Of a DNA stretch of 64,000 nucleotides, positions 7,631 through 36,504 are shown in pieces. Both the position numbers and the translations under genes were made by a program. The DNA is taken from contig JAGFNK010000030.1 in NCBI GenBank assembly GCA_025769875.1, positions 124,001-188,000 on the forward strand, in the 5' to 3' direction. The stretch is from Russula earlei (lineage: Eukaryota > Basidiomycota > Agaricomycetes > Russulales > Russulaceae). Within the stretch, counting starts at the first letter, position 1. Every line of letters starts with the position of its first letter. The notes beneath the pieces are model-generated. The model did not search any database. It saw nothing but the letters and a program-made list of their open reading frames with translations, and was not told where the DNA came from.

Positions 7631-8459
7631 TGTTACGAACCAAGGCCAAGTTCTGGCCGTAGATTGCCCTATTTCACTCAAGAGAGACCTCTCTCACTTT
7701 GCATTGCCGACTCCCTTCCATTTTCTGGGCTATCCCTCCTGCGGTTCAAGATATCGCTATTGCAAAGGCACTATAACACGACCAGGCACCCGTTTCCTAA
7801 TCGGGTAATCATCGTGTGGCAGCCACATGGCCACTCAGCCACCAAGGACCCGAAACAGCAGCACAAACTCTTAGAAACTGTTGCATAAATCATCTGACAT
7901 CATCAAGGCACCAATGACATCATGGCTGACTGAGCGACTCCACAGTGACCTCATAGGCTCACTAAGCGCTCCACAGTGACATCATAATGATGTCATCGCT
8001 CCACAATGATCAGTAATGCGCTCAGTAAGCCTGAAACTTGACACAAGCAAGTTTATGCCTCTGTAGTCCTATTGGATGGTAACAAAGAGTCTAGAATAGT
8101 CCCAGTTCTTTGTAATCGACCCTGTACACTGTATATAAGCCCCAATGAAGCATGGCAGTCGTCAGACTGTCCATTTGTGATACTCTCATCTTTCTGGGTA
8201 CTCCCCTGCAACCGCTCAGTCTAAAGATTCCCCTTGTCTCCAAGGTACTCTTCAACGACCACCTTGTTTAAAGCCCCCTCGCTACACTGGCCTCTAGCCT
8301 TTGCCTCTGTCTCTTGCAACACCTACCAGTCCCCATCTGGTACCTCCTCGTCGTTTGGCTCTTCCTTTTGTTCAACGCCGCTTACGCCGCGTATCATCTG
8401 TTCCGACCCTTGCCCACCTGCTCCTGAGTCCTTAGTGATCAGCAGTACGTGTCTTGACA
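7631..8459 (+). mobile_element. solo LTR, family LTR-B, copy 1 (829 bp)
   Basis: Begins TGTTACGAACC and ends GTCTTGACA, flanked by a perfect 5-bp target duplication TTGCC (7626-7630 and 8460-8464). A second copy of exactly the same length is at 20535-21363. It has a TATATAAG box at 8132-8139 followed by a GGCAGTC..GACTGTCC inverted repeat at 8154-8172. No internal region is present, so this is a recombination product of a full element. Confidence 0.95.
8132..8172 (+). promoter_or_regulatory. LTR-B TATA box and downstream hairpin
   Basis: TATATAAG followed 22 bp later (start to start) by an inverted repeat with arms GGCAGTC and GACTGTCC. This puts the hairpin at about the expected transcript start of the LTR. 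The equivalent in the second LTR-B copy is at 21058-21076. Confidence 0.65.
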
Positions 8460-8527
8460 TTGCCACACTCACCACCCAGTACCCTCCATCTTCCTTCAGC
8501 AACAATGAAGCTCAGGGAGGATTCTAC

Positions 8528-8934
8528 TGTAAGGTATGTGAGCCCACTGGCCCGGAAACTCACATGACTCACTTGCCCCCACCTCCCACGTGTTCCTTGC
8601 CCATGCATGTTCCTTTCCCTTTGTCTCTTGTCTCCCTTCCCCTCCTATTAGGAGCTACTATCTTGTCCAGTATCTCAGCAATTCAGTGAATGGAATCAGC
8701 TTTCTAGTATTTGCATTGACCCTCTTGTGTGGCTAAGAACACCTCGACCCTCAAGCTCTTTCTCTTCTCCTTCAAGAACATACACACACACCCACACATC
8801 CGGCCTTGTGCCCATGCTGCTTAGACATCAAGCCTCATGTTTCAAATATAAGCTTGCTCTGTGTCCCTTCCAGTTCATACCTGCCCTTGGATCATAGCAA
8901 CATGAACTCCATGTACCCATGGTGGCATGCTACA
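8528..8934 (+). mobile_element. degraded solo LTR, family LTR-C, copy 1
   Basis: Starts TGTAAGGTATGTGAGCCC, close to the start of LTR-C2 (16054). The right part (CTGCCCTTGGATCA..) matches the right part of the CpG-rich copy near 53,000. The 3' end is placed by comparison and no clean target duplication is seen. CpG sites of the 53-kb copy are mostly TpG/CpA here. Confidence 0.6.
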
Positions 8935-9224
8935 CTACCATGGTGTGCTTGGGATTGCACTTCCTTCTCTTCCACCGCCTCTACACCTTACCCTCCCAAG
9001 TGACAAATCATCTGACAGATTGACTCCACCACCCAATGTGTCATTCATGCCACCCTCACCTCTTCACTGTGGTGGCGTGTGCAAATGTGGACATGGCATG
9101 GCACAAGCTACCTCAGAGCCATGCACAGCACCATTGGCATCCTCACCCAGATTGTGCTCTCCAACCCGTCACATGCTCCCAACCTCAACCCGGACCTCAC
9201 ACACCTCCTCTCGTGCCAAATCCC

Positions 9225-9655
9225 CAATGGTGGGAACTGGTCCTCCTTGTTACCAAGTGGTTTGGGGTACGGAAGATGCTGGAACACCTGAACTATGGAC
9301 TGCACTGTTTGCATCATGCGTACATCAGATCTTGATTGTTTATGTTCATTGATATCACGTTTGGAATGCGTTGATTGTATCTTTCTGAAGATGTATTGAA
9401 GAAGCAATGAGTAGCATTGCTTCTGTCCCAGATGTTCCTGTACCACCACGTACATCGCTTCCCTGATTAGGAAAGTACTTATGACACTGAGATTGCTACT
9501 AGGGAAGCACTTAATGCTTCTAGCACTGAGATCGTTCACATAGAAGCAACCTCGCTTCTATGAGCCACCTTTTGCTTCTATAGCACCAACTGGTACTACA
9601 GTAGCACGAACCTTATCCCTGTAGGGCTATATAAAGCCCCCAGTTGTAGCAGTTG
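9225..9655. repeat. left arm (a) of large inverted repeat
   Basis: Matches the reverse complement of about 13430-13830 (for example the ACCAAGTGGTTTGGGGT block, the TTTCTGAAGATGTATT block and the TATATAAAGCCCCCAGTT block). It continues across solo LTR-G into 10147-10375, which pairs with 13200-13420. Confidence 0.75.
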
Positions 9656-10146
9656 TGTCACAAGAACCGGCTCTTCGGACCGGACCGGCAATTGGACAAG
9701 CCTACCCGGACAAGCCTCACGATTCCCGCACGTTTTATGACTCGTTTAGCCTCGCATGTACCAGCACCTTCCAGCGTGTCCTAGTTCCGATTGCCTCACC
9801 ATTACCTTGTGTCTACTATTTGATATAGGATACAAAGTCTATATAAACCTGTCTGTAGAAGAGAACAAGCCCTAAGCTTGTTCTCTTGTGAATATCACTG
9901 GATTCTAGCTTCGGGACTGTAGGCTTGCAGGGAATCAAGCAATTGACTCAGAAACTTCTCTCACTCTCCAAGTCTTCGAACGTGAAGACTTAATCGTTGT
10001 TCTTCCACTCCACGGTACACACTAGCCTCTGCTGTGTTGTCACCAAGACCCCCGACCTTTGCAAGAACTAGTCGTCTTGCTCGACTCAGTGCGCACATCT
10101 CACACATGAAATGATTTGTCAGCAACACCGCCCCCAGTCGGTGACA
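9656..10146 (+). mobile_element. young solo LTR, family LTR-G (491 bp)
   Basis: Begins TGTCAC, ends GTGACA, with a perfect 5-bp target duplication AGTTG (9651-9655 and 10147-10151). The inverted copy of the surrounding repeat (13200-13830) lacks it and keeps the unoccupied site. Unlike its surroundings it retains many CpG sites, so it is probably recent. TATA box at 9840-9847; hairpin at 9860-9886. Confidence 0.95.
9840..9886 (+). promoter_or_regulatory. LTR-G TATA box and downstream hairpin
   Basis: TATATAAA followed 20 bp later (start to start) by a perfect 10-bp stem, AGAGAACAAG and CTTGTTCTCT, around a 7-nt loop. Position matches the hairpins of other LTR families here although the sequence is unrelated. 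Confidence 0.65.
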
Positions 10147-10375
10147 AGTTGAGCCTTAAGCTCGACTTAGTTTGCCAATCCCAAACAGTTGACTCCTACC
10201 CTGTCTGCAGAGCCCCTCTCATCTTATTGCCATACTCCAGAAGGATCTAACACTCCTTCCCCTCCATGAGTATTGCTTGCTTGACTCAAGCATATCTGCA
10301 TTGGTAGGATGTGTTTATAGAGGTGACCATTGATCTTATTTAAGGCACTTTGGAGCCTTAACACTCCTCCCTCCT
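10147..10375. repeat. left arm (b) of large inverted repeat
   Basis: Matches the reverse complement of 13200-13420 (blocks such as AGCTCGACTTAGTTTGCCAA and CTTATTTAAGGCACTTTGGA). From 10376 to 10619 no gene or known element is recognised. Confidence 0.8.
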
Positions 10376-10619
10376 CCTTGCCTTGCATTGCAGCGCCAAC
10401 TGTCTTGTCCAAGTGTGCCATGGCATGCCCAGCATCATCCTCTCCCTCCAAACCTCAGGCCCCACTTCCCTGACTGGGTGAGGCAGATTGATGGCACCAT
10501 CGCCGCAGCAAGGGACGGCTGCATCCATGGGTGAGGCATGCTCACCAAGGAACCCTGCCTCTGTCACAGCATGTCCAGAAACGCACTGGTGACTGGGGAC
10601 CCCACTCATAGCCTATATA

Positions 10620-10865
10620 TATAAAAGCCGTGGCCTAGGCTTGGCCAAGCCAAAGCTGGCCAGCGTTGATGGCTTGGCCTGGCCTGGGATTTGAGAAAGC
10701 CAAAGCCACCTCAGGCCAAGCTGGGCTGGAAGAACACTAGTTGGAGGATGACTGTATGGCCTGGACAAGGCCTTGGTGTAAGAATGATGACTTGGTTGTT
10801 CCAACAAGGGTAGAGGTAATTGTTGTATGATGTCATGGTGGTAAGGCACTAAGGGGGGCAAGGAG
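10620..10865. repeat. GGCC-rich repeat copy 2 and inverted block shared with 13848-13965
   Basis: 10620-10745 carries GGCC/GCCAAGC clusters like 7393-7545 in reverse. 10740-10865 matches the reverse complement of about 13848-13965 (CCTTACCACCATGACATCAT block). This is a second, displaced copy of part of the right inverted arm. Confidence 0.6.
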
Positions 10866-11120
10866 TGGTTCATAACAGTCTTCAGCCATTCCAGATTGTC
10901 AAAGATTGTGGGTTTCTCCATTTGATGAAGACTGGAAGACCTGAATACTACAGTACATTCCTTCTGCCTTGACAGTCTCCTGTGATATGAAGTTGGGTTT
11001 TTCTTGCATATGGGACCAGATTGAAAAGTTATGACAGGTTAGTGTTTAGCACAGCCCTATTGATGTGGTAACTAATATACTGTAGGTGTGACATGGGTAA
11101 CCCACAGGTATATTTTGCTG

Positions 11121-11151
<31 letters not shown>

Positions 11152-11186
11152 GAACACTGTACCCATATGGGTAAGGGTACAGTGTT
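11121..11186. repeat. (CCCATA)n tract plus 12-bp-stem palindrome
   Basis: Five tandem CCCATA-like units (11121-11152) run directly into a perfect inverted repeat, AACACTGTACCC (11153-11164) and GGGTACAGTGTT (11175-11186). Related degenerate GGGTAC motifs occur near 5,050 and 22,930. It may be the end of a DNA transposon; not identified. Confidence 0.6.
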
Positions 11187-11299
11187 ACCCATGAAATTTA
11201 TGGGTTACTTACAATATGCATAGGTTTTCATGAAACCCACTCAAGTGCCTCTGCTTCACCAGTCACCTTCACCTTCACCCCACCTGCCATCATCAATCT

Positions 11300-11881
11300 T
11301 GTTACAGTGTTGTGGCTGTTGGAGTGTTAGCTCAGTTTGGTGGGGCCAAGTCCCTGTGACTTGGTTCAGTGTTTTGATGGGGACTGGCTCAAAGAGGGCT
11401 GGTTCAAGGGTTTAGTGTCTCAAGACTAAGTCAAAGATGACCTAATCTGCAGACAGAGTTGATCTTCTGGTTTCACAGAAGAGGAGGATGATGAGAGAGA
11501 AGCAGAGGAGGAGGAGGAACACAAAGGTCCCTTGTGAAGAGCTCAGGTCAGGCAGGGTGTAAGCCAGCACAAGCAAGTTGTGATTGAGAGATAATACAGG
11601 GCAAGGGATGTGACAGGGAATGGGACAAAGCTAAGCTTGGGGCATTCCCCAGCTTTTACAGGTGCTTAAATACTGTATCTAGCAAGGCTGTACAGTACTA
11701 TATGCAGAACAATAGATAAAATTAGACCAATAACAAAAAGGGATCAAACAATAGATGAAACACAAAAGGTGAAACAATAGGAGTCAATCAAGATCAAGGG
11801 ATAAAATGGTAACTAAGGGGACAAGGGTAGTGTGCAAAAATAGAAACAAGGGTTAGTAATGAACAAGGGGAGATTACAACA
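11300..11881 (+). mobile_element. solo LTR, family LTR-E, copy 1 (582 bp)
   Basis: Starts TGTTACAG, ends TTACAACA, with a perfect 5-bp duplication AATCT (11295-11299 and 11882-11886). It aligns along its length with 30583-31743. It contains the uninterrupted GGGTTTAGTGTCTC site into which the MITE has inserted in the other copy. TTAAATAC lies just upstream of a TACTGTA..TACAGTA inverted repeat (11671-11697). It contains no CpG by my reading. Confidence 0.93.
11671..11697. promoter_or_regulatory. LTR-E hairpin
   Basis: Seven-bp stem TACTGTA and TACAGTA around a 13-nt loop, directly after TTAAATAC. Both arms are conserved in the second copy at 31518-31544. Confidence 0.55.
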
Positions 11882-11988
11882 AATCTAGTCACTCCCACTC
11901 CCACCATCACATCTATGCCCATCACTGTTGCCTTGTCCACACCCTTAGTAGCCCCCATCTCACCCATAGTCATGCAGCATCATCTGCC

Positions 11989-13190
11989 ATGCATATCATG
12001 CCCATTGCCCCAATAGCCCCACCTGCCCTGCCTGTTCCCATCACTTCACCCTTGAATTCTTCACACCCAGTGCTGTCCATTGCCATATCCATCCAAGCTC
12101 CAGCCTTGCCTGTCTTGTCTACTGTCCCTGCATCACCTACCATCATTCCAGCCATGCCCACTGTCCTCTCTGTTCTGCATCTCTCCCTCTCAGTCTCATC
12201 CACCATTGCTGCCTTAACCTCAGTTTTGCCAACCACCATTCTAGTCTTGTCCCCTGCCACTTCAGTTTCAGTCTTGTCAGCCTCATCCACCACCACAGTA
12301 GCCTCAGTCATGCCAGCCACCAACTTAGCCTCACCTGCACTCATCAGTTCAGCCCAGTCTGCCATATCACCAGCATTGCCAGCTGCCACCATCTCTGCCC
12401 TGTCCACTGCCTCAGCCCAACCTGCTGTATCACCTCCATTGCCAGCCACCACCACTGCCTCTACATCTCCTGTGATTGCACCAGCTCTAATCTTGCTTGC
12501 CACCATTGCCTTAGCTCAGCCCACTGCTGCCCTCTTAGTTTCACCCTCAGTCTCAGTCAACATCATGCCTGTCACCAAAGTCTCAGTCATGCATGTTACC
12601 AGCCAGAAAGCATCATCATCACCTCAAGCCACCAGCACCACCCAAGAAGACCAAGGCCTCAGACCTGAGCCCAGCAACACCACCCTGCAGAAAGATCAAT
12701 AGCCACCACCACCACATCACTACAGAAGAAGTCACTAGTGCAAGGACCATGCTGCACCACACCTCCCCTTCCACCACATCCCCATCCATGCATATGACCT
12801 CATCCATGCATGCTGCCACCATCTGCAGTGGTGAAGACCTCATCACTGTGGCCACAAGATGATTACCAGAGACCTGCTCATGTCTTGTTTTTGAATGCTG
12901 ACCACACACACTCTAGCTCAATGACTATGGCAAGTATTCACAAGGCCAAGCACACCATCATCATCATTACCTTCCACCTCTGCCAACTCCACCACCACCA
13001 CCATAGTAGCAGCAGCAGCAAAAGCAACAGCAATGGTAACAACTGCAACAACACTAGCAGCACCACATCACCACTACACATTCAACTCACTGGAAGCACA
13101 CCATGCCCCCTCCCTGCTTTGCCACATCATGCCTGTGTTCAACACAATGACACCTCAGCACTTGCCATCCCCCTTCTGCAACAACATGAC
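11989..13190. repeat. low-complexity, CpG-free Pro/Ala/Ser-type imperfect repeat block
   Basis: Imperfect repeats of units like TTGCCAGCCACCACC leave both strands open (a 237-codon frame on plus, a 178-codon frame on minus). The predicted proteins are low-complexity (A/P/S/T or A/G/D/M) with no start context, introns or domain, so I do not call a gene. It sits between the inverted-repeat arms, with a CAG/CAC-rich tail near 12960-13080. Confidence 0.7.
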
Positions 13191-13199
13191 ACAACACAC

Positions 13200-13830
13200 A
13201 TGTTAAGGCTCCAAAGTGCCTTAAATAAGATCAATGGTTGTATCTATAAACGTGTCCTACCAATGCAGATATGCTTGAGTCAAGCAAGCAATACCCATGG
13301 AGGGGAAGGAGTGTTGGGTCCTTCTAGAGTATGACAACAAGATGAGAGGGGCTCTGCAGACAGGGTAGGAGTCAACTGTTTGGGATTGGCAAACTAAGTC
13401 GAGCTTAAGGCTCAACTACTATGAACTGGGGGCTTTATATAGCCCTCAGGGATAAGGTTCTTGCTACTGTAAGTACTGGTCAGTGCTATAGTAGCAAGGA
13501 CAGCGCATAGAAGCAATAGTTGCTTCTGATATAAATGATCTCAGTGCTGGAAGCATTAGTTGCTTCCATAGTGGCAATCTTGGTGTCATAAGTACTTTCC
13601 TAATCAGGAAATGACATATGTAGCAGTACAGGAACATCTGGAACAGAAGCAATGCAATTCATTGCTTCTTTAATACATCTTCAGAAAGATCTGATCAATG
13701 TGTTCCAAAGGCAATATCAAGAAACATAAATGGTCAAGATCTGATGCACACATGATGCAAATGATGCAGTCCATATAGTTCAGGTGTTCTGGCATCTTCC
13801 AGACCCCAAACCACTTGGTAACAACACACA
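13200..13830. repeat. right arm of large inverted repeat
   Basis: 13200-13420 pairs with 10147-10375 and 13430-13830 pairs with 9225-9655. The two parts abut directly here and show the unoccupied LTR-G target site (near 13420-13430). Confidence 0.8.
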
Positions 13831-13847
13831 CATGTTACAAATCACTC

Positions 13848-14216
13848 CTTGCCCCCCTTAGCACCTTACCACCATGACATCATATGATGATTACCTTTAC
13901 CCTTGATGGAATGACCAAGTTGTTGTCCTCACTCCAAGGCCTTGTCCAAACACTTTCCAGCACCTAGTCACCAACTCCCTTGCAGAGGGACATATACCAC
14001 AAGACCTACGCAACTGAGAGCACATCAGGAAACACCATTAGAAGGCTCAGGGCCATTTTACCCTGCCAGGGCCATCATACCCACCACTGCACAGCAGCAC
14101 CACTATCTGAGTCCCAGTCACAAGGAACACATGAGTCACAAGCACCCCAGTCACAGGGCATGCTCAGGTCCCAGGACAAAACACATCCATGGTCACAAGA
14201 CTCTATCATCTGGTCA
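13848..14216. repeat. right-arm continuation of inverted repeat
   Basis: 13848-13965 matches the reverse complement of 10740-10865. 13970-14215 matches the reverse complement of 7131-7385. No coding function is seen. Confidence 0.65.
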
Positions 14217-14617
14217 ACAGAGGTGTCCATTTACTAGTAAATGGACTAAGGTTCAAACTGTGCTCTGCATGTGAGTAGGAGATCATTTGCTGAATGCACC
14301 TGTAGGAGGACAGTAGACCTGCCCTCAAGTATTAGTCAGATGGTCTGTGCACCATCACCTGTTATGTATGTAAGCCCACCAATTGTCAATGACAGTCCTT
14401 AGACGGTCCATTTATGATTCTCCCCCTGTACTCCATTACAACTGCAGCTGTACCACTGTTCCCACCATTCTCCTTCAGAACAGCAGAGTTTAAAGACTTC
14501 CCTTGCTTCCCTGCATACTCCTTCATGACTGCACATTACAGATCCTCTGCCCATCCTCTTGTACTCAGCATGACTGCAAGGTTAAGCAAACCCTGGCCTT
14601 CCCCTCACTCCTCCAGG
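14217..14617 (+). repeat. dispersed LTR-like repeat R1, copy 3 (partial, inverted)
   Basis: Reverse complement of 6598-7130, truncated at CTCCTCCAG. The degenerate hairpin GACAGTC..GACGGTC is at 14391-14408 in the sense orientation. Confidence 0.65.
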
Positions 14618-14806
14618 CAATGCTGAGTGAGGCTGGTGCATATGAACTTGGCACATAGGCTGCATGTGGCATGGTGGAGTGTGTGGAACAGGCTGAGTGG
14701 GAGGGGTATGATAAAGTGAATTAGGTGTATTGGGATCTAGTGAGGTTTCCAGAGGTGCAAGATTAAGCATGCAACCTTCTGGTTCATAGGGATAAGGGAC
14801 CATGAG

Positions 14807-15766
14807 TGTCAAGACTCACTGTTGAACTATCCAGTTCAAGAGCGAGGGGTAAGCTCAAAGACGAGTCAATAGATGTCCAAGACTGCATGGGCAAGAAGTA
14901 GAGTCCAAAGCAGTACCAAATACCAAAGCAGATGGTTACTGGTAGAGCTGAGCAAGTATGCAGGGAAGAAGCCAGAATGTTCACAAGGGGACAGTCCTCA
15001 AAGGAGTATCCCAGGGATGGAGAGTGCTGTAAACAAATGGACAGTCTGGAGACTGTCTGCTACTTTATTGAGCACTTATATACTACAAGAGAACTGTTAA
15101 ATAGGGAACAAGTCTTAACCTTGTTATCAAGCACAATTGATAGATGAGTAAGAAGTTGGAGGATGCTTACTGAGCATGCTCAGTCATGCTCAGTAAGCTG
15201 CTGAGTAAGGAGGCTCCTATTGATGAGTAAGAGCCTTTACTGTCCACATGTTCACTTTAGTACATGTGCAAAGCACCTGATTCATTTACTGCTAGTTAGT
15301 TTAGGGCTGGTCATTTGAGGACTTGTGGTTTGGTTCAAGGAATAGAGTTGCCTATAAGGCCCCTTATATGGTTCTATTAGGGTCCCTAGAGTCGACCCTA
15401 ATACTTCTATTAAGGTCCTTAGTGTTGCTGTATAGTTTGTTCTATAATTATTAGAGTTAGTCTAATAATGTGTTGTAGGGTCTTTAGTATTGCGTCAGTG
15501 CCTATTATAGAGCACTTATGGTCATCCTAAAGGGTCCTTAGGGAGGCTATAATACTGTCCTTTATTGCTAAAAGGGTTGCCATTAAGTGGGGCTTGCTGT
15601 ATGTTGATTTTGCTAAGAATTGCTCATGTGACAATGCACACGTGATATTGTGGACACCTCTACTCACCCCTTTTGTTCATGTGAACAGGGTGATACCATA
15701 GAGGCTGGGTTTCCTCTCCTAAGGAAGGGTCCTTCAAGGGCCCTCTTTGGGAAATGGTTCATGACA
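14807..15766 (-). mobile_element. solo LTR, family LTR-A, copy 1 (960 bp)
   Basis: Bounded by TGTCAAGAC and CATGACA, with a perfect 5-bp duplication ATGAG (14802-14806 and 15767-15771). The sense strand is minus (TATATAAG then AATAAA then the GACAGTC hairpin read on minus). It is inserted in the old minus-strand Copia, directly after the DVIFDE motif region. The inverted repeat is at 15039-15058. Confidence 0.95.
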
Positions 15767-15771
15767 ATGAG

Positions 15772-16625: not shown

Positions 16626-17430
16626 TGTCATGAACCATTTCCTGGAGAGGACCCTTGAAGTACCCTTCCTTAGTAGAGGAAACCCAGCCTCTATGATGCC
16701 ACCCTGTTCACACAGACAAAAGGGGTGAGTAGAGGTGTCCACAATATCATGCACGCATTGTTGCATGAGCAATTCTTGACACAATCAACATACAGCAAGC
16801 CCCACTTAATGGCAACCCTTTTAGCAGTAAAGAACAGTATTATAGCCTCTCTAAGGACCCTAATAGAACTATATAAGGGGCCTTATAAGCAACTCTATTC
16901 CCTGAACCAAACTACAAGTCCTCAAATGACTGACTAACTAACAGTAAAGGAATCAGGTGCTTTGCATGTGTACTAAAGCAGTGAACATGTGGACAAGAAA
17001 GGCTCTTACTCATCAATAGAAGCCTTCTTACTCAGCAGCTTACTGAGCATGACTGAGCATGCTCAGTAAGCATACTCCAACTTCTTACTCATCTGTCAAT
17101 TGTGCTTGATAACAAGGTTATGACTTGTTCCTTATCTAGCAGTTCTCTTGTAGTATATAAGCACTCAATAAAGTAGTGGACAGTCTTCAGACTGTCCATT
17201 TGTTTACAGCACTCTCTACCCCTGGGATACTCCTGTAAGGACTGTCCCCTTGTGACCATTCTGGCCTCTTCTCTGTGTACCTGCTCAACTCTACCAGTAA
17301 CCATACCTCTTTGGTACTTGGTACTGCTTTGGACTCTACTTCTTGCCCACACCATCTTGGACGTCTATCAACTCATCTTTGAACTCATCCCTCACTCTTG
17401 AACTGGATTGTTCAACAGTGACTCTTGACA
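16626..17430 (+). mobile_element. solo LTR, family LTR-A, copy 2 (805 bp)
   Basis: TGTCATGAACC to CTCTTGACA, with a perfect 5-bp duplication CTACC (16621-16625 and 17431-17435). It is shorter than copy 1 through internal deletion. TATATAA at 17154-17160, AATAAAG just downstream, then the perfect palindrome GGACAGTCTTCAGACTGTCC at 17178-17197. Confidence 0.95.
17154..17197 (+). promoter_or_regulatory. LTR-A TATA box, AATAAA and 20-bp palindrome
   Basis: TATATAA followed 24 bp later (start to start) by a palindrome with 9-bp arms and a 2-nt centre, with AATAAA in between. The same arrangement is in the other three LTR-A copies (inverted repeats at 15039-15058, 20322-20341 and 22016-22035). Confidence 0.7.
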
Positions 17431-19430: not shown

Positions 19431-19927
19431 TGTTAAGATCTGTTAGATCTTAATACCAACTCTAGTGAAAGAGTTGCTTGATATAGTTCAAGCACTAGAC
19501 TTCAAATCCTTTGATATTATCTCAGGAAGAGTAAATGTAAGAGATGAGTAGGACCTCTTTCACTTAGAGTGATGACTTGGTTTGAGAGAGTTTGACAAGG
19601 TAGATGTTTCTTGTAAAAGAGTAAGTACCTATACTATGAGATCCCTAGGCATAGTAATCACAGCCATATCCCAATGGCATACACCTCCTAGATACCTGAT
19701 CCAAAATGTCCCCCTTGCCACTGTAACCCTGCAAGACTTGAACCCCTAAGTACCTTTGCCCTTTCCCAAGTAGGTAGTACAGCCATACCAGTTGGTGAGC
19801 AATCAATGATCAATCACTAAGGTGCATCAGTCAGTGAATCAGTAAGCAACAGTAAGCAGGAATCAGTAAGCAACAATAAGCAGGAATCAGTAAGCAAGCA
19901 GACAGGAACACAAAGTGAGTCCTAACA
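19431..19927 (+). mobile_element. solo LTR, family LTR-F (497 bp), nested in LTR-A3
   Basis: Starts TGTTAAGATC, ends GTCCTAACA, with a perfect 5-bp duplication TAACC (19426-19430 and 19928-19932). Only one copy is seen in the window. A 7-bp stem TACTATG and CATAGTA lies at 19632-19656. Strand is a guess from the hairpin position. Confidence 0.9.
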
Positions 19928-21363: not shown

Positions 21364-21412
21364 CTCTCTCACTGTTGAACTGGATTGTTCAACAGTGAGT
21401 TCTGACAGTGCC

Positions 21413-21777: not shown

Positions 21778-21782
21778 GCTGT

Positions 21783-22746: not shown

Positions 22747-22748
22747 AT

Positions 22749-25200: not shown

Positions 25201-25205
25201 TCTAT

Positions 25206-26127: not shown

Positions 26128-26141
26128 GAAGTGATTTTCCA

Positions 26142-26330: not shown

Positions 26331-26558
26331 TTAAGGTACCTAGCAATTGGTCAGTCACACATAGTCCCCAGACATGTAATGAAAACCTTGAAGCACCATT
26401 TGAACCTTACATTGTTGATGGAGACAGGTAAAAACACTACAATTGGAGGTTTGGGGGGGGGGGCAAGGAAAAAAGACAATGTAATACTGTGTGCATACAG
26501 GAATTAACTAAACACTCTTGATCTGATTCTGCCTGCTTTGAAGAAAGAGCCCAGCAAA

Positions 26559-27071: not shown

Positions 27072-27208
27072 CCAGAGTCAAGAGAGCTCTGAACTCATCT
27101 CCTGGAATGTAGTGGGGATTGGCACATGGTGAGAACCAAATGTGATTGAGAGAGACATGTTGAGATTACCACTGCTTTGGGCAGTCTGATGTAATCACAG
27201 CCCAGTCG

Positions 27209-27646
27209 TGTTAACGTGTCAGCTCCCATGGACCAGGTGCTCCTGGCTCACGCGCATCGCTCACGCATCGGATCAGCCCGGACCGGCTCAGCTCAGATGC
27301 TGCAGCCTGCGTATGTTACAATGATAAGTTAATTGATGACAATCGGTAGCTACTAACAACTGATCCTTTATGATACAAGTTGGTAGCTATGATTACTTTG
27401 CCTAGAGACGCTTTCATGTATTTAAGAGGCACTCAATTAGCTAGATCGCTTCAGTTTTGTCTTACACAAACTGAAGTGAGTACTTACTGTTTCCTATCTT
27501 ATCTATCGCATCTAATCACACATTGTAGATATCTTTTGATAGGTATTACTGATTTACAGTTTTGTCTTACACAAACTGAAATATCTTTTGATAGATCTTA
27601 AGGATCTTATTGCTCTTATCATAATCTGCGCCCATCTGCTTCAACA
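27209..27646 (+). mobile_element. candidate solo LTR, family LTR-H
   Basis: TGTTAACGTG to GCTTCAACA; the end resembles the 139-bp Copia LTR end (GCTTCAACA). Flanking pentamers AGTCG and AGACA do not match well, so boundaries are tentative. TATTTAAG near 27419 is followed by a perfect 9-bp stem CTTCAGTTT and AAACTGAAG (27449-27476), and a second similar unit lies at about 27556-27585. It keeps more CpG than its surroundings. Confidence 0.5.
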
Positions 27647-28369
27647 AGACATTGCAGGGGAAGAACTCACTCTTTGAGAGCAAGTGAAGGGGAGGATGAA
27701 CCAGAGAGGGTCTCAGCTGGTGGACATGTCACATGGATGCTCTGACACATTTTGTATAATGGCCAAAGTGTGTTCATTGTCCATTGTGGGCAAGGAAGAG
27801 GGTGGAGCCAAATTAAGTGAGACATGCAGACATGAAGTGAGGGCAGCTGGTGAAGGGATGGAGGGGGTTGCAGAAGACATGACAGAAGGAGAACACAAAT
27901 GTGGTGGTGGTGAGTCATTCATGCAGTCTGGCAGTGGCCAAGCAACCCACCTTAGAGGTTGTGCTAATGCTCAAGTGATATTGGGGTGTAGAGCGATGTG
28001 TATACTCGTCTACAAGTATGGTATTTATACCTCTATGACCCAGGGCTGTTCCTAAGTCCAAAAGAGGTGACTACAGGTGTCCACTATATCGCGCATTAAG
28101 TGACGCATGATGTGGAAACGTTCTAGACGCAGCATAAGGCTGCATCTTGTGATAGATAGCGTAGTATGCGTAACCCTATTGCCATAAGCGCATATACTAA
28201 AGTTCTGTCTAACACGTAACATCTATGAGCGGATCTTGAACCTTGTATGAAGGTCTTCGCCTTCTTTGATCCGTTCAGGTTCCGGTTCAACAGATTTCCC
28301 AACCAGTGTCAGTAACCTGATTACACACCTCACACACTGAGTCATCAGACTCACTCCCCTGGCTCTTCC
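27647..28369. other. island spacer, mixed age
   Basis: 27,650-27,960 is CpG-poor with no recognised product. 28,050-28,290 is CpG-richer and begins with AGGTGTCCACTATATCGCGC, related to a block inside LTR-A (16,733 onward), so it is probably a piece of a related, younger LTR ending near GGTTCAACA. No boundaries could be fixed. Confidence 0.4.
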
Positions 28370-29330
28370 TGTTCAGCCTTGGCAGCTGTATAATTGACTT
28401 GGAACTGATTTTGCACAAGTTTCTCAGCTGTTTGGATCCAGTTGTCTGTCCAACTGGCAGACTTTACATATGTGAGATTATGTCAGGGATGTACAACTGA
28501 AATGAAACAATTATCAGCAATTGAGTCATCAGAAGACTCACTCATAGCAATCTGGTAAGTTTCTGAAGTGTCCATGAGTTAATAATAATGGTTAAGTGTT
28601 TTCTTTGCAATTCTCGTGGCTGCCTGGATAGCTGGGTTGTTGCTACTAGATGGCTTGATTGCATTGGTGAAGTATGTGTTGATGTGGTCCATGGCTGGAA
28701 TTATCATTGGAAGGTTGAAACCCCCACACAAGAAGGATAACATAGCATCTTTGAGAATCTGTTGAAATGTTGAAGTTGTCAAAGTGATAAGGATCTGTAA
28801 AGTGTTAAGTCATGCATACCTTCAACATGACACTCAACTCCCTGACAATCACCCACTCTCCCTCTGTCAACTCATACTGTTGGAGGTCATTCTTGCACTC
28901 AGAGGTCATTTGCTTGATTGCCCCCTAATACTTGACCACAAAACTTTATATGTCAAATGTTGAATTTCATCTGGTGGTTACTACATTGCAAGGCATGATC
29001 TTCAGCACCAATTCCAGCTCCTTGAGACATGTCTTCCAGGGCTGGCAGGAGGATTGTAAATGAGTGTACAATCTTGAAGGCTAATTTCTGAAGCTAGACA
29101 TGACTTCTTAGTGGCAGATAAGATTCATATCCTCATAACATACCTTTACAACAGGGCATATGCTATCTTTAAGCATCTCTTGTTCCTCAGGTTTCAGTGC
29201 TGCAAGCTCATCCACCCAATCCTCCAAGTCATCATCCTCATTGATCTCCTTGTCTCCTTCATCATTTTCCTAGGGTGTGATGAGTTCTTCTGCCTCCAAA
29301 TTGTCTGCCAAATCCAGTAACTCCTGTTCT
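28370..29330 (-). pseudogene. hAT transposase remnant
   Basis: Read leftward on minus: an acidic N-terminal linker (EEQELLDLADNLEAEEL), then KIMPCNVVTTR and NSTFDI (family: PRDVTTRWNSTFDML), YELTEGEWVIVRELSVMLK (family: L...EW..L..L...L), a block with LPMIIPAMDHINTYF and AIQAATRIAKKTLNHYY, then ETYQIAM. At least four in-frame stops (for example CGA/TGG positions now TGA or TAA) and one frameshift are present. Confidence 0.82.
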
Positions 29331-29334
29331 TCAA

Positions 29335-29715
29335 TCTGAGGGCTCACTGCCCACAGCACCTTGCCCATTTGTCCTTGCTGCACTGCCTTGTGCTCATGGA
29401 CTTGCAGTTGGAGTAATAGGATTCTCATGTAGTTGTCTCCTCATTCATGGCTTTGATTACCTGACTCTCTCCTACTTTTAGCTACAGAATTTAAGGCTAG
29501 TATACAATCTTAAAGAACAGTTGGCTTTTGCAGTTTCTTGTGATCTATCACACATGTTTTGTCCTCTTCTCATCCACATGCATAAACCATTCTCTCAAGA
29601 ACACACACAAACATACACACTCTCTCTCTCATGCACATTCCTCTAGAGCATCAAGTGTCATGTCTGGGGCATGACCTTGCTCTCAGCTTGTCCCTTGTCC
29701 AGTCTACACCACAGG
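29335..29715 (+). mobile_element. degraded LTR-C copy 3 (partial)
   Basis: GGGCTCACTGCCCACAGCA.. aligns with GGCTCGCTGCCCATAGCG.. at about 52,546 and with 17,440 in LTR-C2. It continues through the ATTTAAGG region to ..GCATCAAGTGTCATGTC. The 5' start is missing. Most CpGs of the 52.5-kb copy are TpG/CpA here. Confidence 0.65.
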
Positions 29716-30577
29716 GGTTGCTGGCTACTCGTGTGGTCAGGTACTGCTGTACCTGTTCTCTATGGATTACAATCTTGTGGCATGATCTACAGTATGGGTT
29801 GAGTATGAGATCTTGTGGCACTACTAACCCTGCCATGTAGTTTGGACAGGTACACTTGTTCAGACACTTGATATCTCTCCCTTGATCCAAGCTCAATCAG
29901 CATAAAAATTCTCATAGCACTTATTGTACGTATCTTAAGGTATCCAATAGATTTTTTTGCTGAATGCCTTTGTGGTTTGTTGAGATCAAAAAAATAGCAG
30001 TTAGTCATGCCTGCCAACTGATGCTGCATCAGAGTTTCTATGGCTCCAAAATAGGTTAGATACACTTGCTGGTTGGAATCATGTCCAGAACCATGATGGA
30101 TGTGATGCACCATTGCTTTCATCCTTTGCCACTGACTGCATGCCCACACTACCACCTCATGCCAAATGACAAGATCTTGACTGCCTCACCAAGCCCTCAC
30201 CACTTTGTCCAGCCCAGCCTTCACCACTGACCACACACACACACCACAGCCCACTTGATGCAATCATGTTGCAGGTCCTTCACCACCACCTCAACCACCT
30301 CAGCCACCCTCAAATTCCCTTTCATTACTTCCATTCCCTTTGTTCTTCATTCCTGTACATAAAACACTTAGCTACTCTGTAGTAAAACAGTTCAGAATAA
30401 GAATCTTTTCCTTCCCCCCTCTCATCTGTCTGCCTTTGCCTGTATTCAAATGACTGTGCACAATACCAGCTCTCTCCCTTTCTTTCTCTCACCTCTGGTC
30501 CCTTGGTTGATGTCCACTTACTGGTCCAACAGCCCCACTCTTTCTCACTCATGCATCCCTGGACAAACCAAAGTGGA
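29716..30577. other. no gene recognised
   Basis: Short overlapping frames on both strands (longest 122 codons on minus, 29787-30155) with no recognisable domain. CpG-poor; presumably repeat-derived. Confidence 0.45.
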
Positions 30578-30582
30578 GTTGG

Positions 30583-31743
30583 TGTTATGGCATTATGGCT
30601 GGTGGAGCATTAGCTCAGGGTTCAGTGGGGCCAAGTCCCTATGACTTGGTTCAGGGGTTCAATGAGGGCCAGCTCAAAAGAGACCAGTCCAGAGGTTTAG
30701 GCCCCTTTTACCAACTGAGAATTCTTGAATCTTGAACTTGAACTTGGATTTCAGGATTTTCTGGGAGTGACAGGAATGACAGGTGTGATGTAAGTGACAT
30801 AATAAACTAATATGAGTCTATTTCAAATATGAGTTATTTTTTGGTGTGATTTGCTGGGTTTACATGTGATATGTAAAATATTTTTTCTAACTCTTCCTTC
30901 CACTCCTTCCAAGTGGGGTATTGCAAGCATGTCATTAAGGCAGAATATGTGTCACCAATGTGTGGGTGCACATCTTTGTGCAAATTTTGTATGTGCAGCT
31001 CTGGTGAAAATGGGGCTGCAAGCACCCAGATGTTGAGCTCGAGTCAGACTGCTCGACCCCGAGTTTGATGCTGACACATCATGTGTAACTCCATATATGT
31101 GAATATGCAAATGACGACAGAAAAAAATGCATATTAATTTATTATATACATCATATCACTCTTATATCACTCCTGTCACTCCTGTCACTCCCAGAAAATC
31201 CTGAAATCCAAGTTCAAGTTCAAGATTCAAGAATTCTTGGTTGGTAAAAGGGGCCTTAGCATCTCAAGACCAAGTCAAACTATGGCTGGTCCACTGACAG
31301 AGTTGATCTTCTGGTTACTTCACAGAAGAGAAGGACAAGGAGAGAGAGGCAGAGGAGGAAGAGGAACATGAGGGTTCCTTGAGGAGAGCTTAGATCAAGC
31401 AGAGTATAGGCCAGCACAAGTGACTTGTGATTGAGAGAAGATACAGGGCAGTGGATGCAACAGAAAATGGGACAAAGCTAAGCTTGGGGCATTCCCCAGC
31501 TTCTACAGGCGCTTAAATACTGTATGTAGCAAGGCTGTACAGTACTATATGTGGAACAATAAGTGGAGCTCAACCAGTAGCAAAAAAGGATCAAGACAAT
31601 AGATGAAATGCAAAAGGTGAAACAATAGGTGACAATCACAATCAAGGGATCAAATGGTATCCAAGGGGATGGGGGTGAAGTGTAAAGAACAATAACAAGG
31701 GGTTAAAGGTTAGTGACAAACCAAAGAGGGCTAAATCATAACA
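30583..31743 (+). mobile_element. solo LTR, family LTR-E, copy 2 (split by a MITE)
   Basis: TGTTATGG to CATAACA, with a perfect 5-bp duplication GTTGG (30578-30582 and 31744-31748). Without the MITE and its 3-bp duplication it is about 602 bp, matching LTR-E1 (582 bp). The hairpin TACTGTA..TACAGTA is at 31518-31544. Confidence 0.95.
30700..31255. mobile_element. MITE of PIF/Harbinger type (556 bp)
   Basis: Terminal inverted repeats begin GGCCCCTTTTACCAA and run for about 75 bp (to the TCTGGGAGTGACAGG region), with only a few mismatches. A 3-bp duplication TTA flanks it (30697-30699 and 31256-31258). The empty site GGGTTTAGTGTCTC is preserved in LTR-E1 near 11,408-11,421. TTA duplication plus GGCC-type ends fit Harbinger. 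A short frame inside (30834-31025) is not convincing as a transposase. Confidence 0.92.
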
Positions 31744-31929
31744 GTTGGTGCATGGTGCAGAAGCACTTCAGTCTCATTGAGCTCAACAGGTAAAGGTGCC
31801 GCACTCCTGTGACCAGGGCTGTAGCTGTGATCATGCTCATTGCCATTGTGGGCACAATTGGAGGAAAGAAAGGTGGCTGACATCAACTCTCTGAGATAAG
31901 CACAGATTCCCCACAGTGAGATCAGGAGG
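31744..31929. other. spacer between LTR-E2 and the Copia element
   Basis: CpG-poor island sequence containing the Copia 5' target duplication GGAGG at 31925-31929. Nothing else is seen. Confidence 0.6.
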
Positions 31930-32068
31930 TGTTGGATGTGCAGCCACCCGGTGGCATGTGTACAGACAAAGCCGGACCGTACGCGTAAATATTCGAATCA
32001 GTTGTCGTTTGTTTTTTCCCTCAGTCTTTCACACACAAGACTGAGCAAAGCTTCCTTTAGCTTCAACA
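31930..32068 (+). repeat. Copia 5' LTR (139 bp)
   Basis: TGTTGGATGTGC to CTTCAACA. TAAATA near 31986 may act as TATA. The perfect 9-bp stem CTCAGTCTT and AAGACTGAG is at 32020-32045. Confidence 0.97.
32020..32045 (+). promoter_or_regulatory. Copia LTR hairpin
   Basis: Nine-bp perfect stem around the 8-nt loop TCACACAC, identical in the 3' LTR at 36456-36481. It lies about 34 bp after TAAATA. Confidence 0.65.
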
Positions 32069-32084
32069 GATTATGAGACCTGAC
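32069..32084 (+). other. Copia primer-binding site (half-tRNA Met type)
   Basis: GATTATGAGACCTGAC follows the 5' LTR directly. Its reverse complement carries CTCATAA, the anticodon loop of a methionine tRNA, with adjoining anticodon-stem-like bases. Copia-class elements are known to prime from a tRNA-Met fragment cut in the anticodon loop, so this is read as a half-tRNA primer site. Initiator versus elongator is unresolved; the flanking ..AATC favours elongator. Confidence 0.6.
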
Positions 32085-32141
32085 AGCTACTAATTACATC
32101 AACATCCCAAATAAAGCTATCTTTTCCCATAACAAAGCAGA

Positions 32142-35100
32142 ATGAGTACCTCACCATCAGTCGCACAGCCTTCAACCATAAAAGGCACAAGTGCCCCCAC
32201 AGCGGGAGCTGTGGGAAGAAATGGAAGGGGCAGAATTCAACGACCCGACGCGCCTACCCTTGAAGATGGCAAAGTCAAGTATGCTCAATGGAAAGGAGTT
32301 ATGGAAGCTATCTTCCTAGCTACGGGACTGTTGGATATAGTAAAAGGAACTGAAAACAAACCAGACAAAAATGTAGACCCTGTCGGCGCCGCAGATTGGA
32401 CGTCCAGGGATCGCAATGCCCACGCCCAAATCTTCATGACAGTCCAAGGGCACGCCCTCACCATAATACTTGGAATGGTGAACTCTAAAGAATGCTGGGA
32501 CATTCTCGCTGAACGCTTCCAAGGAATGGGCGAGCATCAGGCCGCCCAACTATTGGGTGACCTGTGCCTAAAACCATTAATGGACACAGAACCAATGGCT
32601 CCCCAACTCGCGCACAAAGTACTAACCGCACAAACACTTGTGACAATCGGATTCCCAATAAATCCGAAAGTCCTGGCTTTCATGATGATCTTAGCACTCC
32701 CGAAGACAATGCACACCTCTAAGAAGATCCTTTGTTCTACCCCTCTTGATAAGTTAAACACTACATACATATCGAGTCAAATCCTTATCGACAAGCAGGA
32801 CATGATCCGCAAGTTGGGCGATACTACCGCACTGTACTTTGCCAAAGCGTCAAATAAAGGAAAGGGAAAGGAAAAGAAAAAAGACAAGGACAAGAAAAAG
32901 TGCACACATTGCAAACTATAAGGACATGAAATAACAGAATGTTGGAAACTCCATGGGAAGCCAAATGAAAAGGCAAAAATTGCGACCATTAACGATAGTG
33001 CGCCTGGGACACCGAGGTCCCAACCAACACAAATCACTAGCGCTGCAATTGCCAATGCTCCCGTTCATGACAACGCTATCCGTTTATACCATGCATCAGG
33101 GGGTGACTATGAACCAACCACCGTCCTCACGCTTAAGACCCAGGACCTCCGGGAAGCTAATTTCTCAAATGACTGGATCATAGACTCTGGGGCATCATGC
33201 ATCATGACCTCACACTGTGAATGGTTCAGTCAATACACTGTGCTTTCACGCCCCATACAAGTCATTCTTGAGGACAACAGCTCCATCCCCGCAATTGGAG
33301 TGGGCCAGGTCAAAGTCCAAATGCGTGCCAACAGCGCGTGGACCACAGCATTGTTCCGAGACGTCCTGCATGTACCGGACTTAAATGGAAACCTGCTCTC
33401 AGTTTCACACCTAGCACGGTGTGGAGCACAAGTCCGTTTCGAAGGGCAAACATGTGGTATTTATGACCAAAACAAACTAGTCTGTGAGGGGTCCTTACAT
33501 GGCACATTGTATGTCATGTCCATTAAATCCCCCAAATCCGAGTCCATGCGCATAGCCATGCTGGACCATTTCCCCGCAGAAGGCGAACAACCACACGAGT
33601 TTGCCCTCACTGCTCGCACTACCTCCTCCAAGGCCTCACTGGACCTTTGGCACCGTCGTCTTGGTCACTTAGACCCTAACACGATAAACCGAATGCTAAA
33701 AAAGGCATGGTGAAAGGAATGGAGATTGTGGGCAAAGGACTCACCACTGGGAAATGTATCCCTTGCCTCAAAGGGAAGCAAACCCGGGATGAAATCTTGA
33801 AGACAACCAGCACATGCGCCGACGTTGTGCTTGGCTGCATCTTCTCGGACATCTGCGGAAAGATGCCCACTCAAACTCGCCAAGGTTTTGAATACTTCAT
33901 CACTTGGACAGATGATATGTCTAGGAAAGTGTTCGTCAGAGGACTGAAGTACAAGTCCGATGCTCTAGCACACCTCCAGGCATTCACCGCGCGTGCAGAA
34001 GTCGAAACTGGGCAACGCCTAAAGATCCTTCACTCAGACAGAGGGGGTGAATATACTGGAGGGGAATCTCAATCGTACCTAACCCAAAAAGGCATTCAGC
34101 TAGAACTCACCACCCCGGACACACCGGAACACAACAGCATTGCAGAACACATGAACCAGACCCTACTTGATAAGGTCCAGGCAATGCTTATTGATGCCGA
34201 CCTTCCAGAGTCATTCTGGATCGACACGCTCGAATATGCGGCCCTCATTCACAATGTCACGCCAACTCGCGCACTTGACAACATGACCCCAGAAGAGGCA
34301 TGGAGTGGGAACAAACCGAATGTCTCCTGACTCCGCATTTTTGGTGCACAAGCCTTCGTCCACATCCCTAAGGACAAACACACCAAACTTGAGGCTAGGT
34401 CACTGGTGTGTACATTCCTCGGATATGCGCACCAAAGGAAGGCCTATAAATTAGTCCACCACCCTACCCATCGCATCCTGGAGTCCCGCGATGTCGTATT
34501 CGATGAAGGGGGCCCCACACCACACATCGAGTGTGTCACTCTCGAACACGACGATGCAGACAAAAGTGTTGATGATATTGAGGGAGACAATAGTGATCCG
34601 GAGGGGGCACGAGATGCAGAACTGGTCTCCGACACCGAACCACAGGGCGCTGAGGAGCACGAGCCCCCACAACCCGCCATCAGGCAATCCACTCGTATCA
34701 TGCGCACACCCACACGCAACAATGACCCTAAATTCAGTACCACAACTTATGGACAGCGAAAGCAACGAAATGAACAAGGAAACTTGGCCCATACCGACAT
34801 GGCCACAGACCTGAAATCATACGCTGAAGCCATGTCCCATGCCGACACAGCGGAATGGGAACTCGCGTGTGAAGATGAAAGACGCACCTTCGAAAATATG
34901 GGTGTCTTCGAAATCGTCCCACGCCCAAAAAATTGAAAAGTAGTGGGCAGTAAATGGGTTTTCAAAATTAAACGAGGCCCAGACGGAAACATACTAATAT
35001 ATAAAGCTTGCCTTGTCGCACAGGGCTTCACTCAAATTGAAGGCATTGACTTCGACGAGACATTTGCGCCTGTAGCCAAAATGGCATCCTTGTGCGCGAT

Positions 35101-36358
35101 CCTTGCCATTGCCGCAGAAAATGATCTGGAGGTTCACCAGATGGATGTCAAATCAGCCTATCTAAATGGTGAACTGAAAGACGAAATATACATGGAACCA
35201 CCCCCTGGATTCCATGTACCCAACGGCATGGCACTCCGTTTGCTAAAGGCCATATACAGCACCAAGCAAGGAGGACGCGTCTGGTATGAGAATATCAGAG
35301 CGACACTCGCCCACATGGGGTACACCCACATGGACGCAGATCACGTGGTCTTCATCCGAGAAACCCCGGGGAACTTATCATTTATAGCTCTCTATGTCAA
35401 CAACATTACTATGGCATCTGAAAGCCTAACTGCAATCGAGTCAGACAAAAAGGAACTAAAAAAACACTATGAGATGACAGACCTAGGTAACATTACCTGG
35501 ATCCTAGGCATCCATGTCACGCGCGATCACCAGGAAGGCTGGATCGCACTCTCCCAAGAGAAATATGTTGAGGAAATGCTTGAGCACTTTGGGAAAGCAA
35601 ACGTCAAACCCATCAGCACCCCAACACTCGCAAACGAACATCTATTAAAGGTGCACTCACCCGAGGTGGATGTCAAGTCCTATCAACGCATGGTCAGTGC
35701 AATAATGTACCTCATGCTGGGAACACGACCTGACCTCACGTACACCATCGCTGCACTTGGACGGCACACCTCTTGCCCAGGAAATGAGCACCATCGTGCA
35801 CTTGAACGCGCAATCTGGTATATCCGGGGAATGAGTGATCACTGCCTCGTTTTCCAACGTGGACACAACACTCAGTCAACCTTGACTGGATATGTCGACG
35901 CGGACTGGGCCAGCGATGTGAACGATAGGAAGTCGACCTCGGGATTTGTCTTCATGTTGGCAGAAGGGGCCATAAGCTGGAGTTCTAAGAAACAAATGTC
36001 AGTGGCTCTCTCAAGCACAGAGGCAGAGTATATCACGGCTGCGCATGCGGCAAAGGAAGCCATATGGCTGAGACAGCTACTCACTGAACTGGGACAAAAC
36101 CTCCATCTCCCCACCACTCTCCACATCAATAACCAATCCGCCATGGCCATTGCCAAGAACCCAGAGTTTCATGATCGCACCAAGCACATTGAGGTGCGAC
36201 ACCACTTCCTGCGCCAAAAGGTCAATGCGCGAGAGATCAATCTTGCATACACCCCAACCGAGGATCAAGTTGCTGATGTCTTGACGAAGGGACTCAGCAG
36301 GGAGAAACACGAGCGTTTCATGAAGGAAATGGGAGTGAACACACACCACCAGGGCTGA
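32142..36358 (+). pseudogene. Copia gag-pol polyprotein, inactivated
   Basis: One ancestral reading frame of about 1,400 codons. Start MSTSPSVAQPSTIKG. The gag part ends in a zinc knuckle CTHCKL*GHEITEC with a TAA inside it (32919-32921). Protease WIIDSGASC; GAG-pre-integrase LWHRRLGHLDP. The frame then ends in TGA (33711) unless shifted by -1 at A-AAA-AAG (33698-33704). Integrase retains its acidic residues (FSD.., LHSDRGGEY, AEH). TGA codons interrupt at 34328-34330 (before LRIFGAQAFVH) and 34934-34936 (before KVVGSKWVF). RT has VHQMDVKSAYLNGEL, but its catalytic box is YVNN instead of YVDD. RNase H has GYVDADWA, but HINNQSA where the family has DNQ. Most of these changes are CG-to-TG or CG-to-CA in context. 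Confidence 0.95.
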
Positions 36359-36365
36359 GGGGGCG
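36350..36365 (+). other. Copia polypurine tract
   Basis: GGGCTGAGGGGGCG immediately precedes the 3' LTR. This is the expected position and composition for plus-strand priming, and it overlaps the end of the polyprotein frame. Confidence 0.7.
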
Positions 36366-36504
36366 TGTTGGACGTGCAGCCACCCGGTGGCGTGTGTACG
36401 GACAAAGCCGGACCGTACGTGTAAATATTCGAATCAGTTGTTGTTTGTTTTTTCCCTCAGTCTTTCACACACAAGACTGAGCAAAGCTTCCTTTAGCTTC
36501 AACA
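36366..36504 (+). repeat. Copia 3' LTR (139 bp)
   Basis: TGTTGGACGTGC to CTTCAACA. It keeps CpG at three positions where the 5' LTR has TpG/CpA, and has lost it at two where the 5' LTR keeps it. Hairpin at 36456-36481. Confidence 0.97.

Follow-up and report, generated by a model that had tools for sequence, protein, structure and literature searches.

Reverse transcription normally erases introns, and the loss of an intron hence serves as proof of retrotransposition. In lentiviruses, the trans-activation response (TAR) and poly(A) hairpins place a hairpin at the start of the terminal repeat (R) of the RNA, with TAR intact in both RNA ends, and in the deltaretroviruses (human T-cell leukaemia virus 1 and bovine leukaemia virus) a splice donor lies in R while reverse transcription copies the unspliced RNA. 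For foamy virus, one report describes a splice donor that precedes the poly(A) signal in each of the two long terminal repeats (LTRs), RNA starting at +1 that folds unlike RNA with upstream bases, a 3' structure proposed to block the donor, and suppression of 5' polyadenylation by U1 binding (PMC3694450). For Sire, a Ty1/copia element of the Pseudoviridae, an R of 10 bp is reported (PMC3601003). Here we analyse copia-type LTRs of the fungus Russula earlei, starting from a stretch of 64,000 nucleotides (C30:124001-188000, hereafter the window) of an assembly of 66.6 Mb in 1374 contigs, in which the hairpin near the presumed RNA start may belong to an intron-containing leader. A fragment of a COX15 gene in the window matches Russula earlei at 89% identity across 71% of the query, and the named matches that follow belong mostly to Lactarius, Multifurca and Russula, as fits a Russula-like mushroom. 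The genome is rich in retroelements, with 1130 RVT_2 and 1616 RVT_1 first-look candidates, of which 150 each were scored.

Across six copia representatives (LTR-H of the window and the LTRs of loci L011, L076, L034, L073 and L082), the hairpin appears to be exon 1 of a GT-AG intron of 50-53 bp inside the LTR, with a second, ready-joined copy of both exons downstream; the original prediction, which had listed hairpins after TATA-like boxes in seven LTR families of the window, missed this. Naming the exons E1 and E2 and the joined copy E1'E2', the proposed layout is U3 (unique 3' region) - E1 from the start site - intron 1 - E2 - link - E1'E2' - tail - primer site. Transcription would start at the A of CAGT, within the 5' arm of the hairpin. 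At the RNA 5' end, intron 1 and a second GT-AG intron comprising the link, E1' and E2' would be spliced out to leave E1E2-tail, and the 3' end would stay unspliced and end near E1'E2'. During first-strand transfer, the complementary DNA (cDNA) of E1E2 would pair with E1'E2' over 34-38 nt, so that R would come from splicing at one RNA end and would already be joined in the DNA for the other. The product, U3-E1-intron 1-E2-link-E1'E2'-tail, would be an LTR restored with its introns, in which E1E2 and E1'E2' are kept alike. In copia-1, the hairpin might also serve as a switch, with read-through RNA having the outer arm and hiding the donor (3' copy), and RNA that starts inside the arm lacking it and exposing the donor (5' copy). 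We put a probability of about 0.6 on the reading in which the copia hairpin forms exon 1 of a spliced leader within the LTR and spliced E1E2 pairs with E1'E2'. The chances seem even that these elements form a class of LTR retrotransposon in which R exists only after splicing, introns return each cycle and a truncated hairpin distinguishes the RNA ends. Two other splicing schemes were set aside: if intron 1 were the only intron removed during the life cycle, the LTR should either grow longer or lose that intron, and a splice from E1 straight to the end of E1' is possible only where E1' ends in AG (copia-3 and copia-5).

Compared with the systems above, these LTRs have a hairpin at the start of R in common with lentiviral TAR, with the difference that in copia the outer arm should be missing from the 5' RNA. 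They resemble the deltaretroviruses in having a donor inside R and differ in that the spliced RNA is the proposed template. The RVT_2 domain, the TG...CA ends of the LTRs and the short R (34-38 nt, if R is E1E2) are those of a Ty1/copia element, whereas the introns inside the LTR, the ready-joined R copy and, in copia-3, the lack of U5 (the unique 5' region) set them apart. A further parallel is the foamy virus donor: there, as in copia-1, the donor in two LTR copies is proposed to be treated differently by the RNA fold; unlike foamy virus as described in PMC3694450, copia has a joined E1E2 copy and an R proposed to be made by splicing. The copia stem also straddles the start and is known from DNA alone, and the copia introns are situated within the LTR or at its edge. 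A lariat idea for Ty1, as outlined in passages of PMC1266399, was judged not directly relevant. Among the matches listed in a search of the open-access literature (titles and abstract starts), we found no report of introns in retrotransposon LTRs or of an R made by splicing. If true, the proposal would account for the persistence of introns through a copying cycle that ought to remove them, would add a new way of achieving minus-strand transfer and of distinguishing two identical LTRs, and would turn splicing into a replication checkpoint. It supplies a precise predicted map of start and splice sites, and any genome can be screened for the spliced-duplicate signature.

In the DNA itself, E1'E2' occurs exactly without intron 1, and intron 1 carries donor, branch and acceptor signals. 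The arrangement was first seen in the 3' LTRs of L011 and L034 and in LTR-H, where the stem runs into GTRAGT and the same letters recur about 80 bp further on without 51-53 bp. A finder blind to family, which looks for a contiguous downstream copy of two blocks separated by 35-200 bp, returned GT-AG borders in 28 of 47 raw cases from 27 of 89 sources, and in 0 of 47 for reversed sequences (27 of 46 raw cases in an earlier run before the last loci). These fall into copia-1 (L011 and relatives, L076), H, copia-1b (L033-L035, L075), copia-3 (L073, L080) and copia-5 (L082). The loci are biased toward the best-scoring reverse transcriptases, and most finder cases are copia-1 because loci were chosen by best RVT_2 score.

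All six representatives have an E1 of 22-23 nt opening at the A of an initiator-like CAGT, and an intron 1 of 50-53 nt with GT donor, CTRAY branch site and AG acceptor at proper spacing. The branch A lies 12-13 nt from the intron end (6/6), and in shuffles of one representative CTRAY occurred by chance in 7.8% even within a wider zone of 10-22. When fetched loci were searched with exon letters rather than splice signals, 23 of 24 matches began with GTGAGT and ended with TTGTAG, the 24th being the intron-less L013. Signals for transcription or splicing mark every boundary of the repeated unit. At the 5' end it is bounded by the A of CAGT (with 0-2 extra bases), which in H and the window Copia lies 34-37 bp past a TATA-like box; internally its two exons meet at the intron 1 splice; and at the 3' end the limit is AG/GT in five of the six representatives, L073 matching one base further into the flank. 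The primer-site junction of copia-3 described below also puts the 3' limit at AG. That E2 ends in AG followed by GT, while E2' runs into tail or primer site, suggests a second intron made up of link, E1' and E2'; this putative intron 2 measures 52-59 nt and has GT and AG in the six representatives. Both the existence of intron 2 and the removal of intron 1, whose joined form is known from DNA copies only, are what we infer from these arrangements.

The two exon copies also appear to evolve together within elements. Between lineages E2 varies: H and L011 differ at 4 of 14 bases and L034, L073 and L082 are largely unlike, with L011 and L076 the same. Among 28 copies recovered with a GTRAGT-demanding pattern (copia-1, copia-1b and H, one being a rearranged L015 copy), E1 equals E1' in 22 and E2 equals E2' in 25. 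A single T distinguishes L033 from L034, missing from both exon 2 copies in one locus and present in both in the other; L035 is discordant at that T, its E2 lacking the base and its E2' having it. For copia-3, E2 and E2' were paired by position by hand, five of 22 E2' rows having no E2 partner; the first base agrees in 17/17 pairs (12 T, 5 C), and all 12 bases are the same in 12/17, the other five differing only at a CG/TG/CA site. These pairs share (subfamily) descent and are therefore not independent. Since only spliced RNA, among transcripts of these LTRs, has E1 joined to E2, it is the likely template of E1'E2'. As a separate observation, the minus strand of L015 has two E1 hairpins (2821 and 3098) 277 bp apart in one LTR region, possibly a rearranged or nested copia-1 LTR.

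L073 and L080 diverge just after E2', so that the copia-3 LTR seemed to end there and a junction of E2' with the primer site was expected. E1'E2' directly abuts the primer site at 22 places (0-3 mismatches; control 0), among them the 5' LTRs of L073 and L080, and this shows that the copia-3 LTR lacks U5. In copia-1, 319 places have the intron-bearing E2-link junction and 37 have E1 joined to E2 behind normal pre-start bases. By position, 27 of the latter run into the tail and 6 into the link, the remaining 4 being unplaced; the tail-continuing form amounts to at least 27 among the matches listed, of 106 in all, the rest being mostly normal E1'E2'. The window Copia is likewise the form that has lost both introns (U3-E1-E2-tail-primer site). 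Such copies were rejected as proof of splicing, because a deletion between E1 and E1' yields an identical form. Exact loss of intron 1 alone was found at 6 places in copia-1 and at C556:14930 in copia-3; in the intron-1-less copy of L013 (C364) the putative donor of intron 2 reads AT rather than GT, and the other five intron-1-only losses keep GT. A 106-bp tandem of the whole unit at C161 is what would be expected if unspliced cDNA paired with E1'.

The claim that hairpins follow the TATA box beyond chance was examined by comparing the best gapless stem within TATA+10..+80 with those of 300 dinucleotide shuffles and of 57 other 70-bp windows, all within 350 bp. The test covered twelve sequences, namely A, B, G, H, Copia, F and E of the window and L011, L034, L073, L082 and L072, the latter five from loci fetched by reverse-transcriptase matches; L073 and L082 entered because the splice-duplicate finder had flagged both, and the sample is therefore not unbiased. 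For F and E the stretch was placed from an anchor of our choosing because neither has a TATA box: by eye, F has none at the right place and E none on the plus strand, contrary to what had been proposed. All twelve stems that the original prediction quoted are present at their positions, although two LTR-A copies (15039 and 22016) lie on the minus strand, the former with one outer mismatch. Best stems scored 10.25 for LTR-A (1/300 shuffles and 4/57 nearby windows as good), 12 for LTR-G (0/300; 0/57), 11.25 for LTR-H (0/300; 0/57), 9 for the window Copia (2/300; 0/57), 12.5 for copia-1 L011 (0/300), 12 for copia-1b L034 (0/300) and 10 for both copia-3 L073 and copia-5 L082 (1/300 each), the L082 LTR sitting in the flank of an RVT_1 locus. 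Lower values were obtained for LTR-B (6.25; 68/300; 20/57), whose bulged stem is not significant in the gapless test, LTR-F (7; 32/300; 25/57) and repeat E (7.25; 28/300; 5/57), and copia-2 L072 had no significant stem (6.25; 27/300; 15/57). Enrichment over shuffles, with 0-2/300 as good, accordingly holds for A, G, H, the window Copia and four of the five further LTRs, and fails for B, F and E. Among the LTRs tested, strong stems begin 19-34 bp past TATA (28-33 bp in L011, L034, L073 and L082).

The independence of the seven families, whose arms had been called unlike outside A, B and R1, was overstated. LTR-A and LTR-B have the same LTR ends and core, and their hairpins are therefore homologous; H and Copia have a common core CAGT..ACTG and the same layout and are probably one lineage. 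The reverse transcriptases of copia-1 L011 and the window Copia are 46% identical. With F and E failing the stem test, about three lineages (A/B, G and copia) are left.

As had been proposed, position and pairing are conserved more than sequence. In nine related copia sequences, some paired positions differ on both sides between lineages: -6/+3 is C-G or T-A, -3 is T-A or C-G, +4 is T-A or C-G, and +6 is a mismatch, C-G or T-A. Such paired differences, along with position and pairing, support a selected structure at the start of R. What the original prediction did not note is that the copia start appears to fall within the 5' arm, in which case the two copies in RNA, 5' and 3', would not fold alike; this argues against a whole stem at the copia RNA 5' end as in a TAR element. 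The LTR-H hairpin straddles this start and covers the 5' splice site, and the copia-1 stem spans about -7 to +4 of the intron. Between copia-1 and copia-1b, the pre-start bases that pair with the donor change along with the donor (-6/+3: C-G, T-A). On folding, the mean unpaired probability of the donor went from 0.38 in the 5' copy to 0.17 in the 3' copy, and likewise from 0.49 to 0.05, 0.78 to 0.22, 0.79 to 0.24 and 0.42 to 0.19, the donor being less accessible with upstream bases present in 5/5 copia-1, copia-1b and H sequences.

Several observations weigh against the spliced-leader proposal. In copia-3, copia-5 and a degenerate remnant in the window, where stem pairing extends only to the first intron base, donor accessibility does not drop in the 3' copy (0.14 to 0.29, 0.37 to 0.45 and 0.39 to 0.46; 0/3). 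When pre-start bases were shuffled, the fraction at least as closed was 0.06 for L011, 0.01 for L076, 0.01 for L034, 0.28 for L075, 0.12 for H, 0.23 for L073, 0.91 for L082 and 1.00 for the remnant, so that the effect is clear in 2/8 only (L076 and L034). Start, splice and poly(A) sites are all deduced from DNA sequence. The donors of putative intron 2 are weak, and a CTRAY is lacking at the usual place; the sole branch-like motif near the intron end is a CTGAR, 13-16 nt away, which by eye comes from the 3' arm of the hairpin. Copies that have lost just intron 2 are nearly absent (2 places at 3 mismatches, 1 fitting). The primer-site junction fits the model without proving it, and unequal LTRs are unexplained by it: the C556 element lost intron 1 only in its 3' LTR while the other LTR retains it, and at C364:25312/30011 and C1316:4985/9689 both introns are missing from the 5' LTR and only intron 1 from the 3' LTR. 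Intron-less LTRs exist (at least 27 copia-1 places among the matches listed, and the window Copia), and the introns are thus not essential. Finally, a looser search for GT-AG spliced duplicates in the window and in L001-L008, L069-L079, L081 and L082-L088 gave none in A, B, G or copia-2, and found them only in the copia LTRs H, L073, L076 and L082. Hairpins A, B and G are therefore without an intron, and a spliced leader is no general account of the hairpin.

Those hairpins would also be covered by the most serious alternative, an RNA role in R that is independent of splicing (palindrome strand transfer, dimerisation, packaging or poly(A) placement) and to which introns were added in copia. 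The strong intron-less stems of A, G and the window Copia, and the AATAAA between TATA and stem in LTR-A, are in its favour, and we regard it as a real but somewhat less than even possibility; it leaves unexplained the joined copy and the outer pairs that change with the donor in copia-1 and copia-1b. The joined copy could instead stem from a single ancient duplication, in which the end of a spliced cDNA was once added and E1'E2' has since been held by ordinary selection, as an R or poly(A) module, without being re-templated each cycle. Its presence at similar spacing in all six representatives could indeed be inherited, yet E2 varies by lineage while equalling E2' in most copies, and the one-base indel and the T/C site are altered in both copies, an identity that independent selection would hardly maintain; we therefore think this history unlikely.

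At the DNA level, the palindrome might act around the start site as a promoter element or be bound there, as the onset of strong stems 19-34 bp past TATA and the CAGT in A, copia and the weaker B stem could suggest. The variable length and sequence of the loop and the lack of CAGT in G make this improbable, as do the paired positions that differ together, though a DNA dyad would fit these likewise. That stems were simply picked by eye in a repeat-rich window is a likely explanation for F and a possible one for E and B; for A, G, H, the window Copia and the four further LTRs, with 0-2/300 shuffles as good, it is unlikely, and as an account of the hairpins overall chance seems very improbable. 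Coordinates of the window features are collected in Table 1.

Table 1. Hairpins, copia LTR components and related features in the window (window positions; exon, intron and start assignments are predictions)
Feature	Position	Strand	Details
LTR-A hairpin	17178..17197	+	GGACAGTC-TTCA-GACTGTCC; 24 bp past TATATAAG at 17154; AATAAA in between
LTR-B hairpin	8154..8172	+	Bulged relative of A
LTR-G hairpin	9859..9887	+	Within LTR 9656-10146
LTR-H, solo copia-1 LTR	27158..27646	+	TGTTGAGA...CTTCAACA; target duplication AGACA (5 bp) on both sides
LTR-H TATA-like box	27419..27426	+	TATTTAAG; 34 bp ahead of predicted start
LTR-H hairpin	27446..27479	+	12-pair stem TCGCTTCAGTTT / AAACTGAAGTGA, one G-U; 0/300 shuffles
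LTR-H exon 1 (E1)	27453..27475	+	From A of CAGT, the inferred transcription start; 5' limit of joined copy, 1 extra matching base
LTR-H intron 1	27476..27528	+	53 nt; GTGAGT...CTAAT...TTGTAG; branch A 13 nt from end
LTR-H exon 2 (E2)	27529..27542	+	14 nt, ending AG, then GT; from downstream joined copy
LTR-H putative intron 2	27543..27594	+	52 nt; GT...AG; holds 15-nt link and E1'E2'; from AG/GT boundary
LTR-H E1'E2'	27558..27594	+	Exons joined without intron 1; exact 37-nt match; proposed R at RNA 3' end
Window Copia 5' LTR	31930..32068	+	U3-E1-E2-tail without introns; hairpin 32020-32045, E1 32023-32045; pairs with 36366-36504
Window Copia primer-binding site	32069..32080	+	GATTATGAGACC; same 12 letters after LTR in copia-3 and copia-5 (L082)
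Window Copia 3' LTR	36366..36504	+	96% to 5' LTR; hairpin 36456-36481
Degenerate copia-5-like LTR remnant	43649..43791	-	E1-intron 1-E2-link-E1'-E2', read by eye; E1 at 43769-43791

The architecture of LTR-H matches that of the 3' LTR in the RVT_2-bearing loci L011 and L034. The window Copia has an RVT_2 match at 34937-36358 (1.7e-59), and its LTR pair, like the single LTR ends of L011, L034 and L082, starts with TG and ends with CA. Its putative primer-binding site appears to resemble the complement of the anticodon region of initiator tRNA. The copia-1 loci were retrieved with PF07727; L082 (copia-5) and H are lone LTRs here. In the remnant, E2 and E2' no longer match fully.

Outside copia, the LTR-A hairpin occurs at 459 exact places genome-wide, and the R of LTR-A would be very short because AATAAA sits between TATA and stem. 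Judged by position, LTR-B serves as 3' LTR to one RVT_1 family, presumably gypsy-type (L084, with L071), and LTR-G to another (L082, L083), with G copies also paired about 6.9-7.9 kb apart. In L086, LTR-A lies next to the 3' part of a related internal sequence. In G-like LTRs (window 9860-9886; L070, L074, L082, L083, L085, L087 and L088), the 3' arm and following bases look by eye better conserved than the 5' arm, and primary sequence may thus matter. LTR-F is a solo LTR (19431-19927, target duplication TAACC) inserted into an A-like LTR. For repeat E (31239-31701 and 11397-11852), LTR termini were sought and not found; read on the minus strand, it has a TATTTAAG box with a different, bulged stem after it (AAGCTGGGG-AATG-CCCCAAGCTT), and the stem originally proposed lies upstream of that box. 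The window also contains a U6 spliceosomal RNA gene at 46727-46843 (Rfam RF00026, 86 bits), its sole Rfam match at the gathering threshold.

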